This document shows positions 53,697-64,000 of a DNA stretch of 64,000 nt, one piece after another. This DNA is from Alphaproteobacteria bacterium (GTDB lineage Bacteria; Pseudomonadota; Alphaproteobacteria; Caedimonadales; UBA1908), in assembly GCA_013911655.1 (NCBI GenBank), contig JACESU010000001.1, positions 1-64,000 of the forward strand, in the 5' to 3' direction. The notes beneath the pieces were generated by a model. That model worked only from the letters and a program-made list of their open reading frames with translations, did no database searches and had not been told where the DNA came from. Position numbers and translations under genes: made by a program. The stretch's first letter is position 1, and each line of letters starts with the position of its first letter.

Positions 53697-54857
53697 ATGG
53701 ATATACAACAGTCCCCCGCAGGACAAATCGTTAAATCACCCAAAGGATATAATGCCTTTGTGCCCCATAGTTTGCCACCCAAACTAGAGTGGGATAATGC
53801 GGTGGTTAACAGCCTATCCCGTGCTGATTTCTTGCTTGGAAAATTAGCGCGCGAAGGAGTCAAGTTACCCAATCCTCACCTTTTAATGCGCCCATTCATC
53901 ACCCGAGAAGCGGTGCTGTCCAGCAAGATTGAAGGCACCCAAGCAACCCTAGGAGAAATCTTAGCCGCGAGCGCCGGTGCTCACGTAAAGCAAAATCCTG
54001 ACGATCTTCAAGAGGTGCAAAACTACATCAAGGCACTTGATTATGGGCTGGGTCGGTTAGCAGAGCTGCCATTATCGCTACGCCTTATCAAAGAAATCCA
54101 TGAGCACTTAATGCAAGGCGTTAGAGGATCTCATGCAACTCCAGGGGAATTTAGGCGCAGTCAGAATTGGATTGGATCTCCCGGCTGTACGCTGAACACA
54201 GCCAAGTTTGTGCCACCCCCACCTGATAATTTAATAGATTGCCTGGGAGAATTGGAAAACTTTTTGCATGATAGATCATTACCGCCCTTGATCCATATAG
54301 CCCTTTGTCATTATCAATTTGAAGCCATTCATCCCTTTTTAGATGGCAATGGGCGTGTTGGACGATTACTGATTATGTTGTTGCTGGTTGAACAAAGAAT
54401 GCTGCCTTCGCCTTTGCTCTATTTATCTGCATTTTTTGAAGCGACACGCGATGAATATTATAAACAGCTTTATAATGTCAGCTCAAAAGGCACTTGGCAT
54501 GAGTGGCTCATTTATTTTCTCAATGGCGTTGCTGTCCAATCGGAAGATGTTTTATCACGCGCTGAACGCATCAATGAATTATTAAATCAATGGAAAATTG
54601 ATGTTGCAAGCAGTGGCTCCCAGGTTCCTGTGGACCTGGTGCAACATTTGGCTGTGAATCCTTATTTCACCACTAGTAAAATTGCTGAAGACCTGGGTAT
54701 TGCCTACAGCACTGCCCAAAGAGGTGTTCAAAAACTTGAGGCTGCAGGCATTATCAAAAAGACGAATGATAATAAGCGGGACAAAGTCTACTGTGCTACC
54801 GCAATATTAAACATTCTAGAAGAACCTACGAAAATCAGGGCGGATGTTTATGAATAA
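53697..54857 (+). CDS. Fic-domain protein with inhibitory N-terminus and C-terminal winged helix
   Basis: The 386-aa protein has the DUF4172/Fic_N-type N-terminus carrying the autoinhibitory motif SSKIEGT (Ser75-Glu79-Gly80), then the Fic core with the active-site loop IHPFLDGNGRVGRL (His212, Asp216, Asn218, Arg220, Arg223). A C-terminal helix-turn-helix follows (about residues 325-365, TTSKIAEDLGIAYSTAQRGVQKLEAAG). Fic enzymes transfer AMP from ATP to target proteins; the intact HxFx(D/E)GNGRxxR motif predicts activity. The wHTH is the likely reader of the repeats upstream, giving self-regulation. No antitoxin gene (FicA/phd-like) is adjacent, because the inhibitory helix is built in. Confidence 0.92.
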   Translation: MDIQQSPAGQIVKSPKGYNAFVPHSLPPKLEWDNAVVNSLSRADFLLGKLAREGVKLPNPHLLMRPFITREAVLSSKIEGTQATLGEILAASAGAHVKQNPDDLQEVQNYIKALDYGLGRLAELPLSLRLIKEIHEHLMQGVRGSHATPGEFRRSQNWIGSPGCTLNTAKFVPPPPDNLIDCLGELENFLHDRSLPPLIHIALCHYQFEAIHPFLDGNGRVGRLLIMLLLVEQRMLPSPLLYLSAFFEATRDEYYKQLYNVSSKGTWHEWLIYFLNGVAVQSEDVLSRAERINELLNQWKIDVASSGSQVPVDLVQHLAVNPYFTTSKIAEDLGIAYSTAQRGVQKLEAAGIIKKTNDNKRDKVYCATAILNILEEPTKIRADVYE

Positions 54858-54897: not shown

Positions 54898-55338
54898 TTA
54901 TTGTTTATGAAAAACCTCAATGTTTTCGTTTGAACCAAGTACTTCCAATCCAAACACCTCTTGTTGCTCAGACCAAAGCACCGGCACATTATTCATTAGA
55001 TCAGCTAATTTCAAATGCCTTGGCTGCTCGCCAAATAAAATGGCCTCTTTCAGTTTGGGCGCCAAAAAATTCAAGCGTAAAATCAGTTGGGCGTACTTGG
55101 CGGTAACATCGTACCGCTCGCATAATTCTTTCATGCCACAGCACTTGCCTGATTTTAATTGACGTTGCCATAAATGGGCTTTCACCAAGGCTTTTAGCAA
55201 CGTGAGATCAACGCTGGAATCTTCTGATGCTGGTTGCACACCCTGTGGTGCTAATATCATTTTTCGTCCACCGCGTTTTTTAAGTTTAAGCGGTATAAAA
55301 ACAGATATCTCTCCCTCAATAGTACTTGTCTGGATCAT
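54898..55338 (-). CDS. HTH partner protein of the serine-recombinase module
   Basis: A 146-aa protein with a central helix-turn-helix (about residues 65-105: MKELCERYDVTAKYAQLILRLNFLAP) and a basic N-terminal part. The ATG at 55338 overlaps the TGA of the recombinase gene (ATGA). In alphaproteobacterial prophages and islands, a protein of this kind accompanies the DUF2924 and large serine recombinase genes; it may be a recombination-direction or DNA-binding accessory factor. That role is inference from repeated co-occurrence as I recall it. Confidence 0.7.
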   Translation of the reverse strand: MIQTSTIEGEISVFIPLKLKKRGGRKMILAPQGVQPASEDSSVDLTLLKALVKAHLWQRQLKSGKCCGMKELCERYDVTAKYAQLILRLNFLAPKLKEAILFGEQPRHLKLADLMNNVPVLWSEQQEVFGLEVLGSNENIEVFHKQ

Positions 55339-56636
55339 ACTGTTGCCTCATCTTGCGTTTCTAATAGCAGGCTTTGTAAGCCATTTTTGTTAATTCGTAC
55401 ATCGATCCCTTCGGTACTGACATACACAGCACGGATCAGCGTATGGATTATTTTTTGTTGCTCGATGGGGAATAAATTCTGCCATACCGCGTCGATGTCT
55501 TTGAGCAGATCAAATACTTGTGCTTTACCTAGCCCCGCATTTTCTAAAAGCAGGCTTGTTTGGGCAGCGACTTCAGGGGATTTTAAAACATGACGTACCT
55601 GCTGGATAACAAAATGTTCGACTTCCCCAGCAGCAAGATAGGAATTAATACCGTGACACTCGATACCTCGCAGCACGTTACTACAGGCGTAATAGCGATA
55701 TTGCCGGTTCTTTTTGGCCGTATAGGTTGGCGTCATGGGTATGTTGCAGGCTTGGCAATGAATAATGCCTTTGAGTAACACCGGTGATTTACAAAATGCT
55801 GAATTGCGTTTGGGGGCAGTTTTAAAAGTAGCTTGCGCGCGATCCCATAGATCTTGATCGATGATTCCCTCATGCAGCCCTTGAAACTCTTTCTCTTTAT
55901 GACGTATTTTACCAACATAAACGGGATTTGTGAGGATACGGCGTAATGAGGCCTTAGTAAATCTCGCCCCGCCGATGTCTTTGCCCGTTTTAGCAGTAAA
56001 TTGTTTGGAATGATAACCGTCGTTATTTAATTCTTTAGCCAAATGGGTGGCAGATGCCAGCACTAAAAACCGCGTAAAGATATGCTCAATTAATTTAGCT
56101 TCATGCACGTTAATTACCAATTTTCGATCAATAATATCGTAGCCAAGTGGCGGATTTCCACCCATCCACATGCCTTTTTGTTTGGAGGCAGCAAATTTAT
56201 CGCGGATGCGTTCACCGGTGAGTTCTCGTTCATATTGAGCGAAACTCAAAAGCACATTGAGCATCAAGCGCCCCATAGAGCTGGCGGTATTAAAGCTTTG
56301 CGTCACGGAGACAAATGTCACGCTGTGGCGATCAAATAAATCCACGATTTTAGTAAAATCAAGCAGTGAGCGCGATAGACGATCAATTTTATAAACGATA
56401 ACGCAATCAATAAGCCCTGCAGCGATGTCATCAAATAATTCTTTCAGCGCAGGCCGCTCTAAAGTCCCGCCAGAAAAACCACCATCATCATAGTATTTGG
56501 GCAACATCTGCCAACCTTCATGCTGTTGGCTTTTAATATAATTCTCAGCAGAGAGACGTTGCGCATCCAGGCTATTAAACTCCTGCTCTAATCCTTCTTC
56601 ATGGGATTTTCTTGTATAAATGGCACACCGGATCAT
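55335..56636 (-). CDS. Large serine recombinase (site-specific integrase)
   Basis: The 433-aa protein has an N-terminal resolvase domain with catalytic Ser11 in YTRKSHEEG, LDAQRLSAENYI, YKIDRLSRSLLDF and the FAQYERELTGERIRDK helix. The middle Recombinase domain is followed by a zinc ribbon (CQACNIPMTPTY and YYACSNVLRGIECHG) and a C-terminal coiled region. Such enzymes insert and excise phages and islands at att sites. It is the most direct evidence of a mobile element here. The gene follows DUF2924 by three bases and overlaps the HTH gene. Confidence 0.93.
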   Translation of the reverse strand: MIRCAIYTRKSHEEGLEQEFNSLDAQRLSAENYIKSQQHEGWQMLPKYYDDGGFSGGTLERPALKELFDDIAAGLIDCVIVYKIDRLSRSLLDFTKIVDLFDRHSVTFVSVTQSFNTASSMGRLMLNVLLSFAQYERELTGERIRDKFAASKQKGMWMGGNPPLGYDIIDRKLVINVHEAKLIEHIFTRFLVLASATHLAKELNNDGYHSKQFTAKTGKDIGGARFTKASLRRILTNPVYVGKIRHKEKEFQGLHEGIIDQDLWDRAQATFKTAPKRNSAFCKSPVLLKGIIHCQACNIPMTPTYTAKKNRQYRYYACSNVLRGIECHGINSYLAAGEVEHFVIQQVRHVLKSPEVAAQTSLLLENAGLGKAQVFDLLKDIDAVWQNLFPIEQQKIIHTLIRAVYVSTEGIDVRINKNGLQSLLLETQDEATV

Positions 56637-56639
56637 AAT

Positions 56640-57083
56640 TTATACCGCGCCTCTTGTTCTTAAACCAAAAAATAAAGGACCATTCCAACGGGTGCCTGTG
56701 ATCCGCCGTGCTATAGCCGAGAGAGATTTATAAGTTTGGCCACGATATACAAACCCGTTTTCAGCAACTAACACCTCATAATCCTCACCTTGAAATTCAC
56801 GAATTAATTTAGTCCCCACAGTGGGTCTGCCACTCAGCATTGGATTAGAAAATTTTTTGCCCTTTTCCATTTGATTGGCCAATTGATCTATGGTGTTTGC
56901 CGCCTTTTCAGATATGGGACCATACGCCAATTCCTGCAATCGATGGGCAAGCCGTGGCAGCAAATAGTTTTTTTGATACGGTGGTGCTGGTTCATCAAAC
57001 AGTTGTACCCACAACTGTTTTAATTCTTGGATTGACTGGTTTTGTAGGGCCAGAACCTGTTTAATAATTGACGTTTTCTTCAT
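56640..57083 (-). CDS. DUF2924 family protein
   Basis: The 147-aa protein shows the DUF2924 pattern: LKQLWVQLFDEPAPPYQKNYL with RLAHRLQELAYG, then the basic C-terminal half GTKLIREFQGEDYEVLV and YKSLSAIARRITGTRWNGPLFFGL. Its genes sit upstream of serine recombinases in many alphaproteobacterial elements; the basic tail suggests DNA binding and the family may help the integrase. No catalytic motif is evident. Confidence 0.88.
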   Translation of the reverse strand: MKKTSIIKQVLALQNQSIQELKQLWVQLFDEPAPPYQKNYLLPRLAHRLQELAYGPISEKAANTIDQLANQMEKGKKFSNPMLSGRPTVGTKLIREFQGEDYEVLVAENGFVYRGQTYKSLSAIARRITGTRWNGPLFFGLRTRGAV

Positions 57084-57125
57084 GATACCTCATTCAAATG
57101 CTTAAATTCGCTTCACAGTAACGCT

Positions 57126-57260
57126 TCATTTCGGAGATAAGTCCAGAGAAGAAGCGCTATTTGCCTGAGGTTTTTTCTTTTTCTCCAAACTAATCGCCCG
57201 AAGCAAGCTATCTGCCAATATTTGCGCAATAAATTTAATGGGGTGTTGATTTTTGGTCAT
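57126..57260 (-). CDS. Small basic protein of the integration module
   Basis: A 44-aa ORF, ATG at 57260 and stop TGA, in the 57-kb gap otherwise empty of genes. It encodes IKFIAQILADSLLRAISLEKKKKP, a helix with a basic tail. GGAGG lies 13 bases upstream, farther than ideal. Similarly sized genes occur between lexA-like and DUF2924 genes in related elements as I remember them. It has no known function and is called with reserve. Confidence 0.45.
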   Translation of the reverse strand: MTKNQHPIKFIAQILADSLLRAISLEKKKKPQANSASSLDLSPK

Positions 57261-57348: not shown

Positions 57349-57378
57349 TTGACTGCCCTAACATTTGTTAGGTATGAT
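57349..57378 (+). promoter_or_regulatory. lexA-like gene promoter with 16-bp palindromic operator
   Basis: TTGACT (57349-57354) and TATGAT (57373-57378) are 18 bases apart. The spacer holds the perfect inverted repeat CCTAACATTTGTTAGG (57357-57372). A dimeric repressor bound here would cover the whole core promoter, so the lexA-type gene should be self-regulated and DNA-damage inducible. AAAAGGA is the ribosome site. Confidence 0.85.
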
Positions 57379-57410
57379 AGGGTAACAAGCTGAGAAAAGG
57401 ATTTAGCTTC

Positions 57411-58094
57411 ATGACTAAACAAAAACGTATAAAACCAGGTCCAAAGCCGAAGAACGGATTGACGGATGCACAGCAAGATACATTGATGGTCATTCAAAAG
57501 TACCAGCAGGCGCATGGTATGTCGCCTACTGTGCGGGAGATTGCTGAGGTGCGCGGTATTAAGTCTGCCAGCGCTATTGAGGTGATCCAGCAATTAGAGA
57601 ATAAGGGGTACCTTAAGCGCGATAAAGGAAAGGCGCGGGCCATTGAAATGTTAGAGCGATCTGTACCCGTTAACCAGGTTACTCAGGTGGTGCCGGTGGA
57701 AGTATTAGGTAAAGTATCAGCGGGTCACCCGATTTTGGCGCTTGAGGAGCACATGGGTGAATTTTTAGTGGATAGTGGTGTTGCTAGAGGCCACTGTTTT
57801 GCGCTCGAGATTACCGGTGACAGCATGGTGGATGCGGGCATTAATGACGGGGATTTTGTCATTGTGCGCACACAAGAAACCGCGCTCAACGGTGAGGTGG
57901 TCATCGCATTATTGGATGACGAGGCAACCTGTAAAACATTTTACAGACGGACAAGCCACATCGAGTTAAAGCCAGAAAACGAGGCTTATCAGGTTATTAA
58001 GGTATCACCTGAGCAATCGTTTAAGATTTTAGGGAAAGTCATTGCAATTCGAAAAATGGAGGTTAAATATGCAAATGGGCGTTGTAAACAATAA
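57411..58094 (+). CDS. LexA/CI-like self-cleaving repressor
   Basis: The 227-aa protein has a LexA-type N-terminal winged helix (about residues 18-75, MVIQKYQQAHGMSPTVREIA, IKSASAIEVIQQLENKGYL) and an S24 peptidase domain. The cleavage bond is Ala104-Gly105 in GKVSAGHPILA, the nucleophile is Ser138 in ITGDSMVDAGI, and the base is Lys175 in ATCKTFYR, so RecA-dependent autocleavage is expected. It represses its own promoter palindrome and presumably the overlapping downstream gene. It is an element copy, distinct from a host LexA, which is not in the window. Confidence 0.92.
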   Translation: MTKQKRIKPGPKPKNGLTDAQQDTLMVIQKYQQAHGMSPTVREIAEVRGIKSASAIEVIQQLENKGYLKRDKGKARAIEMLERSVPVNQVTQVVPVEVLGKVSAGHPILALEEHMGEFLVDSGVARGHCFALEITGDSMVDAGINDGDFVIVRTQETALNGEVVIALLDDEATCKTFYRRTSHIELKPENEAYQVIKVSPEQSFKILGKVIAIRKMEVKYANGRCKQ

Positions 58095-59328
58095 CAGTAA
58101 ATTCAGGGTGACCTCAAACCGGAGGTTTTGGGAATATGATTTAGAGCTGCCCGTTGAGCGGCTCATGGATGAGTACAGTAATCCCAATTTGCGACAAAAT
58201 TGGCTTGAATCACTGTCACCACGACAAGTGACCATGCTGTATGCGGTGAACCAGGTAGAGGCGGATGTCAGTAAAGCTCTGCCGGTGGCGCAAATGCGCA
58301 AAACCCTCATGGAGCAATCCGATGATCTGTTCAACTATTATCTGGTGAATCGCTTTAATCATGCCAAATTAGAAACAGCCGTATCAGATATTGCCAAGAC
58401 AACCCTTAGCGATGATCTTCTGGAATTCTGCCTGGTCAAAAATAACAAATACGACAAAAAATCCTTGTTGTTTGCACTGTTTAATCAAAACCCGGATGCA
58501 CTCAAGAACATCTATCATTACGATAAAATTCATAAAAAGGGATTTGCGGCTTTCGTGCTACTAAACCCACCACGCCAACAAGCAAAAACCTTCGCTGACT
58601 TTATTTCTTCATACCCAATAGCTAAAATTTTAGAACAATACGATTTAAATTTAGGCGATGGCTTTGAGAGCCAATTACAAGATTCATTTGTTCATGACGG
58701 TAGAATCTATCTTTTTATTCGTCGCGCCAGTGACGAAGATGTGCTGCTAAGCAGTGATCAACTTCTGCATGGCCATAAACCCGAATGGACCATTATTGAT
58801 TTTTCTGAAAATGGCAAACAAGCGAATATCTGCGCCAAGTGCCCACAAAAATCAGCCTTTATCGCCAATGCCTTGATCAGCGAGTACTTTAACCAACCGA
58901 TCAGCTTTACTGATGCTGCGGATGTTAATTTTAAAAAACAGGTGGAGCGGTTCTTGCGTCTGTCCGCCAGCGAATCCGATCAAGAACTTAAACTTTTTGA
59001 AATCCGCTTTCGCTCACCTTACTTTCACAATAATACCGAAATTGCGATTAGCACCTGTCCTTACAACTCCATTGCTGAAGATTTAAAGGCAATGCAAGGC
59101 GCTGCTGGTGATGTCTTGGCTGATATTACCTGCGTGGATTCTATCAAAGTACTGTATCAAAACAAACGGATCACCCTGTATTTTCGCTGCCTGGATGAGG
59201 CATGTGATCATATTCGCATTTGTTACTCCGAGCATGTACTCGATAAAAATGCTCGGGAAATTTTTAAATCATGGATGAGAGACACCTATGGCCTTAAGAT
59301 CTTGCCAAAAGCCAAATGTTGCAACTGA
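58069..59328 (+). CDS. Unknown protein A of the LexA-controlled cassette
   Basis: The 419-aa product starts at ATG 58069, GGAGG six bases upstream, inside the end of the lexA-like gene. I recognise no catalytic family. It is alpha-helical in the first third (residues 20-200), then shows a beta-rich part with FIRRASDEDVLLSSDQLLHGHKPEW and a possible zinc site ANICAKCPQKSAF, and later CDEACDHIRICYSEH. Its overlap with the repressor and the following gene means it is co-expressed with them on derepression. It could be a defence or replication-control factor; nothing in the sequence decides. Confidence 0.75.
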   Translation: MQMGVVNNNSKFRVTSNRRFWEYDLELPVERLMDEYSNPNLRQNWLESLSPRQVTMLYAVNQVEADVSKALPVAQMRKTLMEQSDDLFNYYLVNRFNHAKLETAVSDIAKTTLSDDLLEFCLVKNNKYDKKSLLFALFNQNPDALKNIYHYDKIHKKGFAAFVLLNPPRQQAKTFADFISSYPIAKILEQYDLNLGDGFESQLQDSFVHDGRIYLFIRRASDEDVLLSSDQLLHGHKPEWTIIDFSENGKQANICAKCPQKSAFIANALISEYFNQPISFTDAADVNFKKQVERFLRLSASESDQELKLFEIRFRSPYFHNNTEIAISTCPYNSIAEDLKAMQGAAGDVLADITCVDSIKVLYQNKRITLYFRCLDEACDHIRICYSEHVLDKNAREIFKSWMRDTYGLKILPKAKCCN

Positions 59329-60427
59329 TGCGCTAAATGCCTTACTGACGCATCAAGGCTCATGGGTGGATTTGAATCAAGAGTATCAAAATGCGCTTAC
59401 TCTTTTGCAAAGAGAGCAGTTTGTACATCATACTTCCAAGCGTTTTATTAAGTGCTACAACCCAAAAGACGTGAAGGATAGTGCTGCCAATCCCGATTGC
59501 GATAATCAAATTTATATCGAGGATGATTTTGACGAGGACTGCGACGATCTTGTCTGTGATAATTGTGGACGTTATATTTTGCCGAATTCGCACAGCAAAA
59601 CCCGATGTTTAGAAAGCACCGTCCAGTTAAATTTCCCTAAAATCACGCAGTATCTAGAACGTCACCTAGGCGAGCAGCAATTGCACTTTTATCTTTTGAG
59701 CAAAGGCGTTTACACGGTAATGAGCCCATATGGCATCGTCACCTTGGTTTTGCTTGATATCTGCACAGATCATCGTCATTTGACGATTGATAAATTAAAA
59801 GCGATGCCTACCTTAATACTGAATGTACGCGCTAAAATCCCATCGATGATCATTGATGTCCCTATTATTTCAGTTGCCGATCTCATCCACGATCCATTGT
59901 TGCTAACGGACTTGATTAAACAAACCTGCCAAACCGGTGTGTGCGAACTGATCCCTAATTATTCAGCCAGCATTTTGCCTTTTCGCATGATCAGTTTAGC
60001 CGAACGAAAAATTGCGCCACAGGAAAAATATCTAGAAATTCGTATGGCAGATAACGGCGTGAGCATCAATGGCATTGTGGTAATTGGGCGGCAAGCTTCT
60101 TCTCGGTTGCTGATTTTTCGCTTGCTGCTTGAGCAATATTGGCAGGATTTTGAAGTAGCCAAACCATCAGCGCAACACACGTTTTTAAACATCAATCAAC
60201 TGGCTGATTTAATGGAGCCTCATGTGGGTATGATTGAAGATTTAGAACAGCAGATCAGACGTCCATTAAATAAAATGCAAAAGGTGATTCAAGACACGCT
60301 GGCAGAGCAATTAGGGTTGCCCATCAAACGCCATGATGTCATTGAAACCCATGGCTGGCCTGGTTGTAACAGCAAGCAGGAGTTTGGTTATCGATTAAAT
60401 CCAAACACCTTACTTTTTCGAAAATGA
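59288..60427 (+). CDS. Unknown protein B of the LexA-controlled cassette (zinc ribbon)
   Basis: The 379-aa product overlaps protein A by 41 bases at its start and the facing primase-helicase gene by 18 bases at its end. Residues 60-115 carry a strongly acidic patch (IEDDFDEDCDD) and a zinc-ribbon-like set LVCDNCGRYILPNSHSKTRC (CxxC...C). The C-terminal third contains a winged-helix-like segment with VSINGIVVIGRQASSRLLIFRL and INQLADLMEPHVG. Such a pairing suggests nucleic-acid binding. No known family recognised. Co-regulation with LexA makes a DNA-damage-triggered role likely. Confidence 0.75.
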   Translation: MALRSCQKPNVATDALNALLTHQGSWVDLNQEYQNALTLLQREQFVHHTSKRFIKCYNPKDVKDSAANPDCDNQIYIEDDFDEDCDDLVCDNCGRYILPNSHSKTRCLESTVQLNFPKITQYLERHLGEQQLHFYLLSKGVYTVMSPYGIVTLVLLDICTDHRHLTIDKLKAMPTLILNVRAKIPSMIIDVPIISVADLIHDPLLLTDLIKQTCQTGVCELIPNYSASILPFRMISLAERKIAPQEKYLEIRMADNGVSINGIVVIGRQASSRLLIFRLLLEQYWQDFEVAKPSAQHTFLNINQLADLMEPHVGMIEDLEQQIRRPLNKMQKVIQDTLAEQLGLPIKRHDVIETHGWPGCNSKQEFGYRLNPNTLLFRK

Positions 60428-62443
60428 TGGCGCGACAGTAAGACGTTTAGGCTCTTTGTTGTCGGCTCCGCCAGTTTTAATTAATTTTCCTTCCTCTAAT
60501 AATTCAGTCACCATATCCTCTAGCTTTTGGCGGCTTAAGGTATGAAATTCCACAGGTAATCGCGCACGTTGTTTGTAAACCCCAGGCTCACCTGTGTGAG
60601 AAAATGGTAGATCTTCGATAGCCGAATCTTCTATGGCTTTTATTAGGGCATTTTTTAAGTAGCTATTGGAAAATCCACCAGTGGGAACAAATACACCATT
60701 TTGCCATTCTAAATTGACTTCAGCTTGCATAGGACCATAGTTTGCCTTTTTTCTGCTTAAGATCCGGGTGTTACTATTTTCTTGATTGGAAGGCTTAGAA
60801 AAATACCAGCGAGAACGCACCGTGTTATTCCATGCGGTTGAGCCACCGGTGCCAGTTTTACGTTGAATACCAGAATCCGATGGATGCGCACAAATCAGCA
60901 CGGCACCATTTATGGCTCTTGCAATACGTGCACAGCAATTCTGGATAAACTGGCGCACCTGAGAGCGATTATTTTCATTACCTCCAAAGAGATCCGCCGC
61001 CGTATCTAAAATAACCAAATGCGGATTAAATTCTTTAATATCTGCTAAAAGCTCGTGATAAAATGGCGTGAGCTGGCCATTATCTTTGCCATCAAAGACC
61101 ATCAATAAGTTATCATCGCCAACACGAGAAATCATTCGTAAATGCTCAGCCAGATCAGCCATGTTAATATCAAAATATTGATTAATGGCATACTGCCTGC
61201 GCCATAACTCTTGCTCATCATCTTCACATAAAAGCGCATAGACTTTGCTTTGTTTGATTGGGAAATTTAACCAAGCTGAGCCCGTAGCCACAGCCGTCAT
61301 CAGCTGCTGTGCAAGCAGCGATTTTCCAACCCCACCATCACCATAAATAGCTGTGACATAACCCGTAGGTAACCAGCCATCAATCACCCAATCACGATTA
61401 GGGGGTAGTTTTTGCCAATTAAACAAATTAATCGGTACAATCGTCTGTCGTTTTAGAAAATCCTTTGGTGACTGGTTAATAAAATCCTGAAGTAGTAAAC
61501 CCTCTGCCTTAGCGTCAGCCGCGTCCCAGCCCTTATCTTTGTCAGAAGGTGGTTTTAAAATCGTGAGTGATGCAACCTGTGGCAACAAATATTCGGCTAA
61601 TTGTTTGGCATACTGAAAACCTGGCTCGTCATTATCAGGCCATATAACAATCTGTTTTTTATAAAGTGGAGACCAGTCTGTTTTATTCAGTGGCGCGTTG
61701 GCACCAAACATGGCTGTGGTTGCCGCAATGCCAGAGTGAATTAACGCGTCTGCTGATTTTTCACCTTCCACAATGATTATCGATCGGCTTTTGATAATAC
61801 CTGGAATATTATAAAGCGGGCGAATTTCCGGGGCGCGATGGCTGCAGCTTTTGACATCCCAAGGCCGGTATTGCTTGCCATACATGGTTTCATAGCGGTA
61901 GATGCAAGCGATAATCTTTTTGTTCTGATCGTAATAATCCCAGCGGGCAGTTGGATGGCCCAACAGATTATTACGGCATAAATCGTCTAAATCATGACTT
62001 TCATATTCTCGTAATTTTCCTTTGAGATCTTCGGTTTCTTCGTAATAGGTTCTAGATCGAATCCCAAGCCAATCTGAAATACCTTTGATCAGTTCTGGAA
62101 AATCATGACGCGTATCTCGGTTACTGACAGCAGCCCAAAGAGCAATGATATCGCCTCCTTCCGCGGTTGCAAAATCATGCCACATGCCAGCCTTATCACC
62201 GTCTAAATCAACGACCAAACTTTCGCCAGGATTTCCTTGTACGTCACCCACAAAAAATTTATTGCGGCGAAATACACCGCCTGGTAATAGGTATGATAAG
62301 ACACCGCGCAGATTTCCAAGCAGTCGCATCTTAATTTCTGATACCGGTGTGGAGGGTTCAGATTTGATTTCTTGCGATAAATGTTGCGGTGCTGCGGTAT
62401 TGAGGTTATACCAATCTTTTAAATCAATCACATTCTCAGCCAT
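60410..62443 (-). CDS. TOPRIM primase fused to a RecA-like (AAA_25) helicase
   Basis: The 677-aa protein has an N-terminal primase-like zone, then a TOPRIM domain with SIIIVEGEKSADAL (Glu226) and IVIWPDNDEPG (Asp270, Asp272). The ATPase follows with Walker A IYGDGGVGKSLLAQQL (367-378) and Walker B HLVILDTAADLFGG, and a C-terminal wing. It resembles RepA/gp4-like replication proteins of phages and plasmids and should unwind and prime element DNA. It is the main replication gene of the element, ending where protein B ends, tail to tail. Confidence 0.92.
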   Translation of the reverse strand: MAENVIDLKDWYNLNTAAPQHLSQEIKSEPSTPVSEIKMRLLGNLRGVLSYLLPGGVFRRNKFFVGDVQGNPGESLVVDLDGDKAGMWHDFATAEGGDIIALWAAVSNRDTRHDFPELIKGISDWLGIRSRTYYEETEDLKGKLREYESHDLDDLCRNNLLGHPTARWDYYDQNKKIIACIYRYETMYGKQYRPWDVKSCSHRAPEIRPLYNIPGIIKSRSIIIVEGEKSADALIHSGIAATTAMFGANAPLNKTDWSPLYKKQIVIWPDNDEPGFQYAKQLAEYLLPQVASLTILKPPSDKDKGWDAADAKAEGLLLQDFINQSPKDFLKRQTIVPINLFNWQKLPPNRDWVIDGWLPTGYVTAIYGDGGVGKSLLAQQLMTAVATGSAWLNFPIKQSKVYALLCEDDEQELWRRQYAINQYFDINMADLAEHLRMISRVGDDNLLMVFDGKDNGQLTPFYHELLADIKEFNPHLVILDTAADLFGGNENNRSQVRQFIQNCCARIARAINGAVLICAHPSDSGIQRKTGTGGSTAWNNTVRSRWYFSKPSNQENSNTRILSRKKANYGPMQAEVNLEWQNGVFVPTGGFSNSYLKNALIKAIEDSAIEDLPFSHTGEPGVYKQRARLPVEFHTLSRQKLEDMVTELLEEGKLIKTGGADNKEPKRLTVAPSFSKK

Positions 62444-62446
62444 ACG

Positions 62447-63142
62447 CTACCCATTCCAACATGTTTTTTGCCACCGACAGCTTTTGCATACAAAATAATT
62501 GGGATCTTTAGCTATTCGGGGAAGCCATTCACTTGCTTGGCACGCTTTAAGAATATGTGCTGCGCGATCAGAATAGCGCTGCGCAATAGCCGCATCGAAC
62601 TGGATCCATTCATGATGCAATTCTGAGGAGTCTTTGTTTAATATCGTCACAAGTGCCGGATGTTCATCGAGTTGCATATAGGCCATGTAAAGCTGTACTT
62701 GCACAAAATAATGGGGATGAGATAAGGCTAGGCCGCGAGTCACACAATCACGCCAATATTTTTGATTCATGGTTTTACATTCCCACAGCGCAGGATAAGA
62801 AAAGCCACTTGGACCTGAAAGCAATACGCCATCAATATGACCGGCTATTTTGCCACCTGCTATTTCAAAGCCGTATTGATCACCTTGCTTATTGCGCGTG
62901 CTTAATTCAAACCCTACCAGCTGCATCCATGAGATAATTAAATTCTCGAGCAAATGCCCCATGGCAAATGTTTTAAGTTGTTTGCCAGTAAATTCATGAT
63001 CTGCTTTTGTGCCTAGATATTGGTATTGAATGCGTCTATCGCAAGCATCTCCCAAACTTGATGCACCCAGGTAATTTCTCGGCGTTTTGCGGGATTCGGA
63101 TTGTTGCAAACCCTGCTCAATAAGTGCGTTAATATCTTGCAT
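62447..63142 (-). CDS. Cas4/YqaJ-type PD-(D/E)XK nuclease with four cysteines
   Basis: The 231-aa protein has the nuclease core with Asp104 in AGHIDGVLL and Glu121-x-Lys123 in LWECKTMNQKYW, preceded by His102. Cys34 together with Cys219, Cys222 and Cys228 (YFVCKSCRWQKTC) is the Fe-S cysteine set of Cas4 and AddB nucleases. The family trims 5' ends during phage or plasmid recombination. It overlaps the small upstream gene by 14 bases and stops four bases before the primase-helicase ATG, so all are co-expressed. Confidence 0.9.
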   Translation of the reverse strand: MQDINALIEQGLQQSESRKTPRNYLGASSLGDACDRRIQYQYLGTKADHEFTGKQLKTFAMGHLLENLIISWMQLVGFELSTRNKQGDQYGFEIAGGKIAGHIDGVLLSGPSGFSYPALWECKTMNQKYWRDCVTRGLALSHPHYFVQVQLYMAYMQLDEHPALVTILNKDSSELHHEWIQFDAAIAQRYSDRAAHILKACQASEWLPRIAKDPNYFVCKSCRWQKTCWNG

Positions 63143-63340: not shown

Positions 63341-64000
63341 TTACCTCGTCAATCCTTCCATGACCATAAAATCTGATTTAAGAAAACGTGGGTTTTTCTC
63401 ATCAAAATACAGTTGCGCAATGGTTTTTTTGCCTACCGGATGCACAGTAAAACCTGTGCGTAATGCATCCCGCTTTTGGAGTCTGGGACCAGGGATTTTT
63501 CTGCCAATTTTGATTGGGATATCGCTAAAATCGCCGTAAATGCAAAAGCGATAATAGATTTGCCCATCGACTGTTTTTTCTTTAGGAAGCGCCATTAAGC
63601 CAAGGCTTTGAGCAATAAAGGCAACATCTAAAGCCAGTTGCTTGGAGGCGGTCGTATACTCAAAGGTTTTATGTAGCATGTAACCATCGGTATCGAGTAG
63701 TCCTGCAAGAATTTCAGAGCGCGTGGCTTTGTCGGCAATTTTGTAAATTTTTGGAATGAATTTTTCAGCCGACAATTTGTTGTACAAACCCAGCGCTTTT
63801 AATTTTTGCGTTAATGGATTAGCGGCACCAGGAGGTGTACTAAAATAATAACTGTTGGCTTGATTACCTGGGATTTGATGAATGCGTACTTGCAGCCCCA
63901 TCTTTTCTGAGATTGCAAAACAATAGGCGATGATTTCCGCATCGGGTGTTGTAATGCTTGGGGTTGCATTCTTAAAACACCCATCACCCAGTAACAATCC
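63341..64000 (-). CDS. LAGLIDADG endonuclease / degenerate intein segment (partial)
   Basis: The open frame enters the window from the right edge and ends at 63341. It contains two LAGLIDADG motifs, GLLLGDGCF at the very edge and ILAGLLDTDGYML near residue 95, the dodecapeptide pair of homing endonucleases. The C-terminal end, reading PRFLKSDFMVMEG, resembles the intein blocks F and G (xFLxxDFxVxHN) but has Glu-Gly where the splicing His-Asn should be, followed by LTR and stop. Splicing would therefore not work. The host protein (N-extein) lies beyond the window. Confidence 0.72.
   Translation of the reverse strand, partial: GLLLGDGCFKNATPSITTPDAEIIAYCFAISEKMGLQVRIHQIPGNQANSYYFSTPPGAANPLTQKLKALGLYNKLSAEKFIPKIYKIADKATRSEILAGLLDTDGYMLHKTFEYTTASKQLALDVAFIAQSLGLMALPKEKTVDGQIYYRFCIYGDFSDIPIKIGRKIPGPRLQKRDALRTGFTVHPVGKKTIAQLYFDEKNPRFLKSDFMVMEGLTR

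Follow-up and report, generated by a model that had tools for sequence, protein, structure and literature searches.

The 64,000-nucleotide stretch analysed here (hereafter the window: positions 1 to 64,000 of contig JACESU010000001.1, assembly GCA_013911655.1, from an alphaproteobacterium of the Caedimonadales) carries a single run of three overlapping genes, lexA, A and B (57411–60427, forward strand), within an element that, judged by its genes, is a prophage of the Undavirus type related to the Wolbachia phage WO. We read this locus as an SOS switch, i.e., a self-contained damage sensor that relays its signal through A and B, and give this reading an even chance. Its two halves differ in strength: it is very likely that LexA represses its own operon and that damage releases A and B, while the proposal that B, together with A, sets off early transcription and replication by acting at a set of phased repeats falls slightly short of even. 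The features that carry the argument are the following.

57349–57354, forward strand: -35 hexamer TTGACT, of which TTGAC is retained in all six aligned lexA promoters.
57357–57372, forward strand: predicted LexA operator CCTAACA-TT-TGTTAGG, which fills the promoter spacer (arm conservation).
57373–57378, forward strand: -10 hexamer TATGAT, with at least one base changed in L004 and in the decayed copy L043.
57411–58094, forward strand: lexA, the phage LexA, with DNA-binding domain, S24 autopeptidase, cleavage site and Ser/Lys dyad (domain matches, alignment).
58069–59328, forward strand: gene A (phrog_21102; WO gp10-like), 419 aa from the ATG at 58069 (profile match).
59288–60427, forward strand: gene B (phrog_25990; WO gp9-like), 379 aa (profile match).
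59453–59566, forward strand: Cys56, Cys71, Cys90 and Cys93 of B, a probable zinc site (alignment of nine rows).
60029–60424, forward strand: C-terminal winged helix of B, residues 248–379.

An initial annotation of this DNA had described the trio as a LexA-controlled cassette, and this is supported because the operator is conserved and LexA is intact. The overlaps that it claimed were confirmed (26 bp between lexA and A, 41 bp between A and B), as were the lengths of both proteins from their coordinates, and all three genes are under strong purifying selection (dN/dS 0.05–0.08, window vs. L002). The promoter is of the sigma70 type with a spacer of 18 bp. The 16-bp palindrome reported in this spacer is present but not perfect, as its 7-bp arms enclose an unpaired TT centre that varies among lexA promoters. 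Symmetry alone proves little, since nine palindromes of the same form (7-bp arms, 2-bp centre) occur in the window; the operator stands above chance because its arms are conserved. Among the seven lexA promoters in view (window, L002, L004, L013, L017, L019, and L043), the 14 arm bases were exact in five and one base off in two. Outside the 16-bp operator, the intergenic identity to the window was 90% for L002, 65% for L004, and 41% for both L013 and L017, the two most distant relatives compared, which nevertheless retain 14 of 14 arm bases. Each locus has one operator, always at lexA; scans allowing up to two mismatches gave no further copy elsewhere in the window, in L040/L041 or in the relatives examined. 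In the own genome (1.73 Mb), the exact sequence occurs once, no site has a single mismatch and three have two mismatches, while a control pattern gave two sites with two mismatches. The arms resemble the SOS box of Gram-positive bacteria (CGAAC-N4-GTTCG), from which each half departs at one base.

The phage LexA is complete, matching LexA_DNA_bind (3.6e-16) and Peptidase_S24 (4.6e-33) over the cut-off. In the alignment with the LexA chain 7ocj, SAGHP falls on AAGEP, GDSM on GMSM, and ATCKTF on VTVKRL, segments that contain the Ala-Gly cleavage site and the Ser/Lys dyad. The protein has the parts of a self-cleaving repressor, for which RecA-dependent cleavage and operator binding are predicted. 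LexA_DNA_bind was searched in 27 genomes including the own one, and 12 of them had a match. The prophage carries the only LexA of the cell recognisable by search, because the prophage gene was the sole match in its own genome; nine further genomes of the order, one of them from the same genus, were searched and none had any. RecA is present in the host genome. LexA would repress its own operon only and, upon DNA damage, host RecA would trigger its self-cleavage, so that A and B rise together; LexA would then be a sensor working via a relay and not a CI-type repressor of lytic promoters.

A conserved trio in other genomes had been set beforehand as a test and was found: LexA lies directly upstream of A in eight (window, L002, L003, L004, L013, L017, L019, and a decayed copy in G417) of the ten non-WO-type loci with upstream DNA in view. 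It was absent upstream of A in two distant G033 contigs (L014 shows just 524 bp upstream) and in all five WO-type loci, i.e., those closest to WO (L008, L009, L010, L020, and L062, two of them IMG/VR contigs). B comes after A in 15 of the 16 loci, being interrupted in L004 and short in L015, and was not found in G417 by profile search. Matches to A/B were obtained in 3 of 93 relatives, 3 of 385 genomes of the class, 2 of 42 of the order of G029 and 1 of 9 of the order of G033 (overlapping sets), and among 50,697 phage records in Wolbachia phages only (three for A, six for B). In L009 and L010, the WO pair is placed between recombinase and replication genes, while WOVitA1 (L046) is without A and has B reduced to a fragment, the C-terminal domain. 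The decayed G417 copy (L043, G417:C68, 3863–6366) has a lexA operator with one mismatch, A fragmented over several frames and no B found; an endolysin sequence comes soon after.

Both proteins had been said to fit no recognised family, but neither is an orphan: A matches phrog_21102 (1.1e-140) and B phrog_25990 (1.1e-118), both annotated as of unknown function. A low-confidence model suggests a helical N-terminus and an alpha/beta middle for A. The possible zinc site proposed in this protein found no support, since the Wolbachia relatives do not retain its CxxC. The description of B as a protein with acidic patch, zinc-type cysteines and winged-helix-like C-terminus fared better: the order is a Cys4 cluster, a fast-evolving middle and the C-terminal winged helix; Cys71, Cys90 and Cys93 are invariant in nine of nine rows and Cys56 in eight (the exception, L004, is a fragment without that part of B), and the patch is retained except in L014. 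The C-terminus has a winged-helix fold as in the OmpR/PhoB transcription factors. The Trans_reg_C sequence profile gave no match in B, and no receiver domain was among its Pfam matches.

The candidate target of B lies beyond the window, just upstream of the sigma-like gene that opens the leftward operon (sigma-like/AAA/exonuclease/primase; the first gene, contig 66244–66876, has a sigma-70 region 2 match just under the cut-off). Three direct repeats AAATAAGAC are found there (contig 66.92–67.01 kb), starting at 66922, about 66976, and 66997, the middle copy being degenerate; their spacing of 52–55 and 21 bp is near whole helical turns and recurs in relatives. Phased repeats were present in 11 of the 13 contigs that show both B and the DNA upstream of the sigma-like gene (window, L048, L049, L050, L053, L054, L004, L055, L009, L010, and L046), including WOVitA1, where four copies are spaced 32, 32, and 21 bp. 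They also occur in L047, L051, L052 and L057, contigs without B in view. L058 and L059 had no phased repeats and no A or B was found, and the partial views of L056, L061, L063, and L064 showed neither. Residue 325 of B covaries with the repeat: Arg accompanies repeats of the form AATAAGAC and Lys those of the form AATAATAC. The residue lies in the long helix taken as the recognition helix, and the covariation is probably one joint evolutionary event. Co-occurrence with B and covariation with residue 325 make the winged helix of B the leading candidate for a protein domain that reads the repeats.

Two observations weigh against the relay. No phased repeats were found in the two distant G033 contigs despite their A-B pair, and our confidence in the relay was lowered because of this; L060, in turn, has phased repeats and a RepA operon with no A/B in 20 kb, an exception to the link between B and the repeats. 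In G033 (L014 2710–3611, L015 379–1293), where LexA is also missing, the next gene after A-B, in the same orientation, is sigma-like, which again ties the pair to this gene. The C-terminal winged helix may allow B to bind DNA, the phased AAATAAGAC repeats upstream of the leftward operon being the most likely site, and with A it might turn on early transcription and replication; at the early promoter region, B could be either an activator or a repressor. A and B probably help the prophage to wake up.

Other repeats occur in the same region. An iteron-like array (contig C1 67131–67376, L040 3131–3376), past the window end, adjoins an AT-rich stretch and a AAACCCTTGATATATA element, and nine of the ten CTTCCCG copies of 41 kb fall within 610 bp. 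Relatives have other repeats in the same place, namely ATGGAAA/GCTTTCC in L049 and L004 and AATCTAG in L050–L054, and each was above the maximum of 200 shuffles. TTAGGAA in the WO contigs L009 and L010 (six and five copies) was not above shuffles, and L057 shows none. Such arrays likely mark an origin with lineage-specific iterons. In Wolbachia-type phages, a motif like GGATTTGAAAAATTTTTGTCCAAAAAATC beside TATATATA was seen by eye upstream of A and other phage genes (L008 9778–9995; L026 6570–6803 and 15979–16230; L009 1633–1951 and 9325–10200); standing where undaviruses have the LexA operator, it is possibly a WO-wide promoter element.

The iterons invite another explanation, in which A and B are an origin-recognition pair that binds the lineage-specific iterons by the AT-rich stretch and loads the primase/helicase, LexA timing replication. 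We consider this unlikely: window and L003 share 84% identity in the winged helix of B while their iterons differ completely, the variable middle (47% in this comparison) is not constant among phages that share iterons either (75–83% identity), and WOVitA1 lacks A and most of B. Distinctly unlikely, in our estimate, is that LexA is a classical CI-like immunity repressor that directly silences lytic genes, with A and B as lysogenic passengers. LexA does adjoin the recombinase and the replication module, a frequent location for repressors, and excerpts of PMC6182141 and PMC7924643 describe phages run by LexA-like or CI/LexA-domain repressors; against it, the operator was seen at the lexA promoter only in the sequences scanned (window, L040/L041 and relatives, up to two mismatches), and A and B form part of the gene run and show strong conservation.

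The initial annotation had left the choice between a damage-triggered replication control, which fits the evidence best, and a defence pair, which found no support. That A and B act after damage as a defence or toxin pair, directed at other phages or at the host, is highly improbable, as no PADLOC family matched A or B at E 0.1, neither similarity goes beyond the level of common arrangements, matches in phage records were confined to Wolbachia phages, and B was in no plasmid record (A was not searched there). The SOS switch with its relay can be drawn out into a full picture, which we offer tentatively and regard as somewhat doubtful: the phage of LexA-lacking bacteria would bring the whole damage sensor, a one-promoter LexA regulon with the A/B pair as sole output, B signalling to the phased repeats at the early promoter, while Wolbachia phages would run the same pair without LexA behind a phage-wide promoter motif.

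The prophage covers ~39 kb (about 54.9–93.6 kb of the contig, bounds by gene content), its terminase is 72–73% identical to WO relatives, and its genes include a serine recombinase, baseplate V and a GH108 endolysin (PF05838, 6e-23, contig C1 92973–93566). The large serine recombinase, this endolysin and LexA are Undavirus traits; other traits given for that group are a PAAR gene and the absence of ankyrin or eukaryotic-association genes. The neighbours of the operon in the window are listed below.

55335–56636, reverse strand: large serine recombinase of the prophage (domain match).
56640–57083, reverse strand: DUF2924 protein, divergent from lexA (domain match).
60410–62443, reverse strand: RepA-like primase/helicase (Toprim and AAA_25), the final gene of the leftward operon (domain matches).
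62447–63142, reverse strand: Cas4-domain exonuclease of the primase/helicase operon (phrog_1990, 2.4e-71).

B converges on the primase/helicase gene with an overlap of 18 bp, so the tail-to-tail arrangement noted earlier is correct. The Cas4-domain exonuclease, for which no Pfam family matched, is probably the YqaJ-type enzyme of undaviruses. The DUF2924 gene is also present in L002, L004, L013, L017, L019 and the G417 copy. Between it and lexA, a conserved stretch (57100–57160) with the short inverted repeat CGCTTC...GAAGCG adjoins the DUF2924/recombinase genes, is partly retained in distant relatives and is a possible phage attachment site. A LAGLIDADG/Hom_end protein (351 aa, 218 aa scanned; 63341–63997 and on to contig 64396, reverse strand) is encoded inside the replication operon of the window phage and undavirus relatives and was not detected in the WO loci compared. 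At 53697–54857, just outside the prophage on its recombinase side, lies a gene for a Fic-domain protein whose tail resembles a winged helix.

WO-type phages shape Wolbachia and other intracellular bacteria and, to our knowledge, how they exit from dormancy is unclear. The present reading assigns a concrete, testable role to a pair long annotated as hypothetical, names candidate sites for it to act on, and suggests a way for a prophage to sense damage in hosts without the standard sensor. Its novelty is lower than first thought because A and B come from a phage group already described, for which LexA has been published, as seen in excerpts of PMC9203015. These excerpts propose the genus Undavirus (within the proposed Symbioviridae; Holospora, Tara prophage SP13), whose members encode LexA, YqaJ and GH108, the first two generally absent from Wolbachia phages. 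They also describe WO-PC1, a conserved, unexplained pair of hypothetical proteins (WOCauB3 gp2-gp3) between recombinase and replication in sr1WO and absent from sr2WO (reference WOVitA1), and they contain nothing on an operator, on operon logic, on the LexA status of the host or on what the pair does (PMC9203015). By position, from which we assign the name, and by homology to WO gp10/gp9, A and B are WO-PC1.

In WO (gp10-gp9, AB036666), the same overlapping pair is convergent with RepA, with an identity of about 42% for A and 34–38% for B, but no LexA is upstream and the promoter region of A has the motif that recurs upstream of other WO genes. Among Undavirus prophages, L004, a contig of the metagenome-assembled genome named isolate SP13 and thus probably the same prophage as Tara SP13, has both LexA and A; its B is interrupted in the assembly. 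In the GIL01 phage, LexA family members likewise run the phage switch, although there, according to excerpts of PMC6182141, host LexA is used with gp7 (LexA-gp7) and gp6 is a phage activator homologous to LexA. By contrast, the window phage encodes a full-length LexA, and the search revealed none of the host's own. The SetR-SetCD system of SXT/R391 is similar in that, as we understand its mechanism, a self-cleaving repressor controls activator genes that switch on the element. The proteins are unrelated, SetR being CI-like and SetCD FlhDC-like, whereas the sensor in the window is a true LexA, encoded by the first gene of the same run as the pair it would control.
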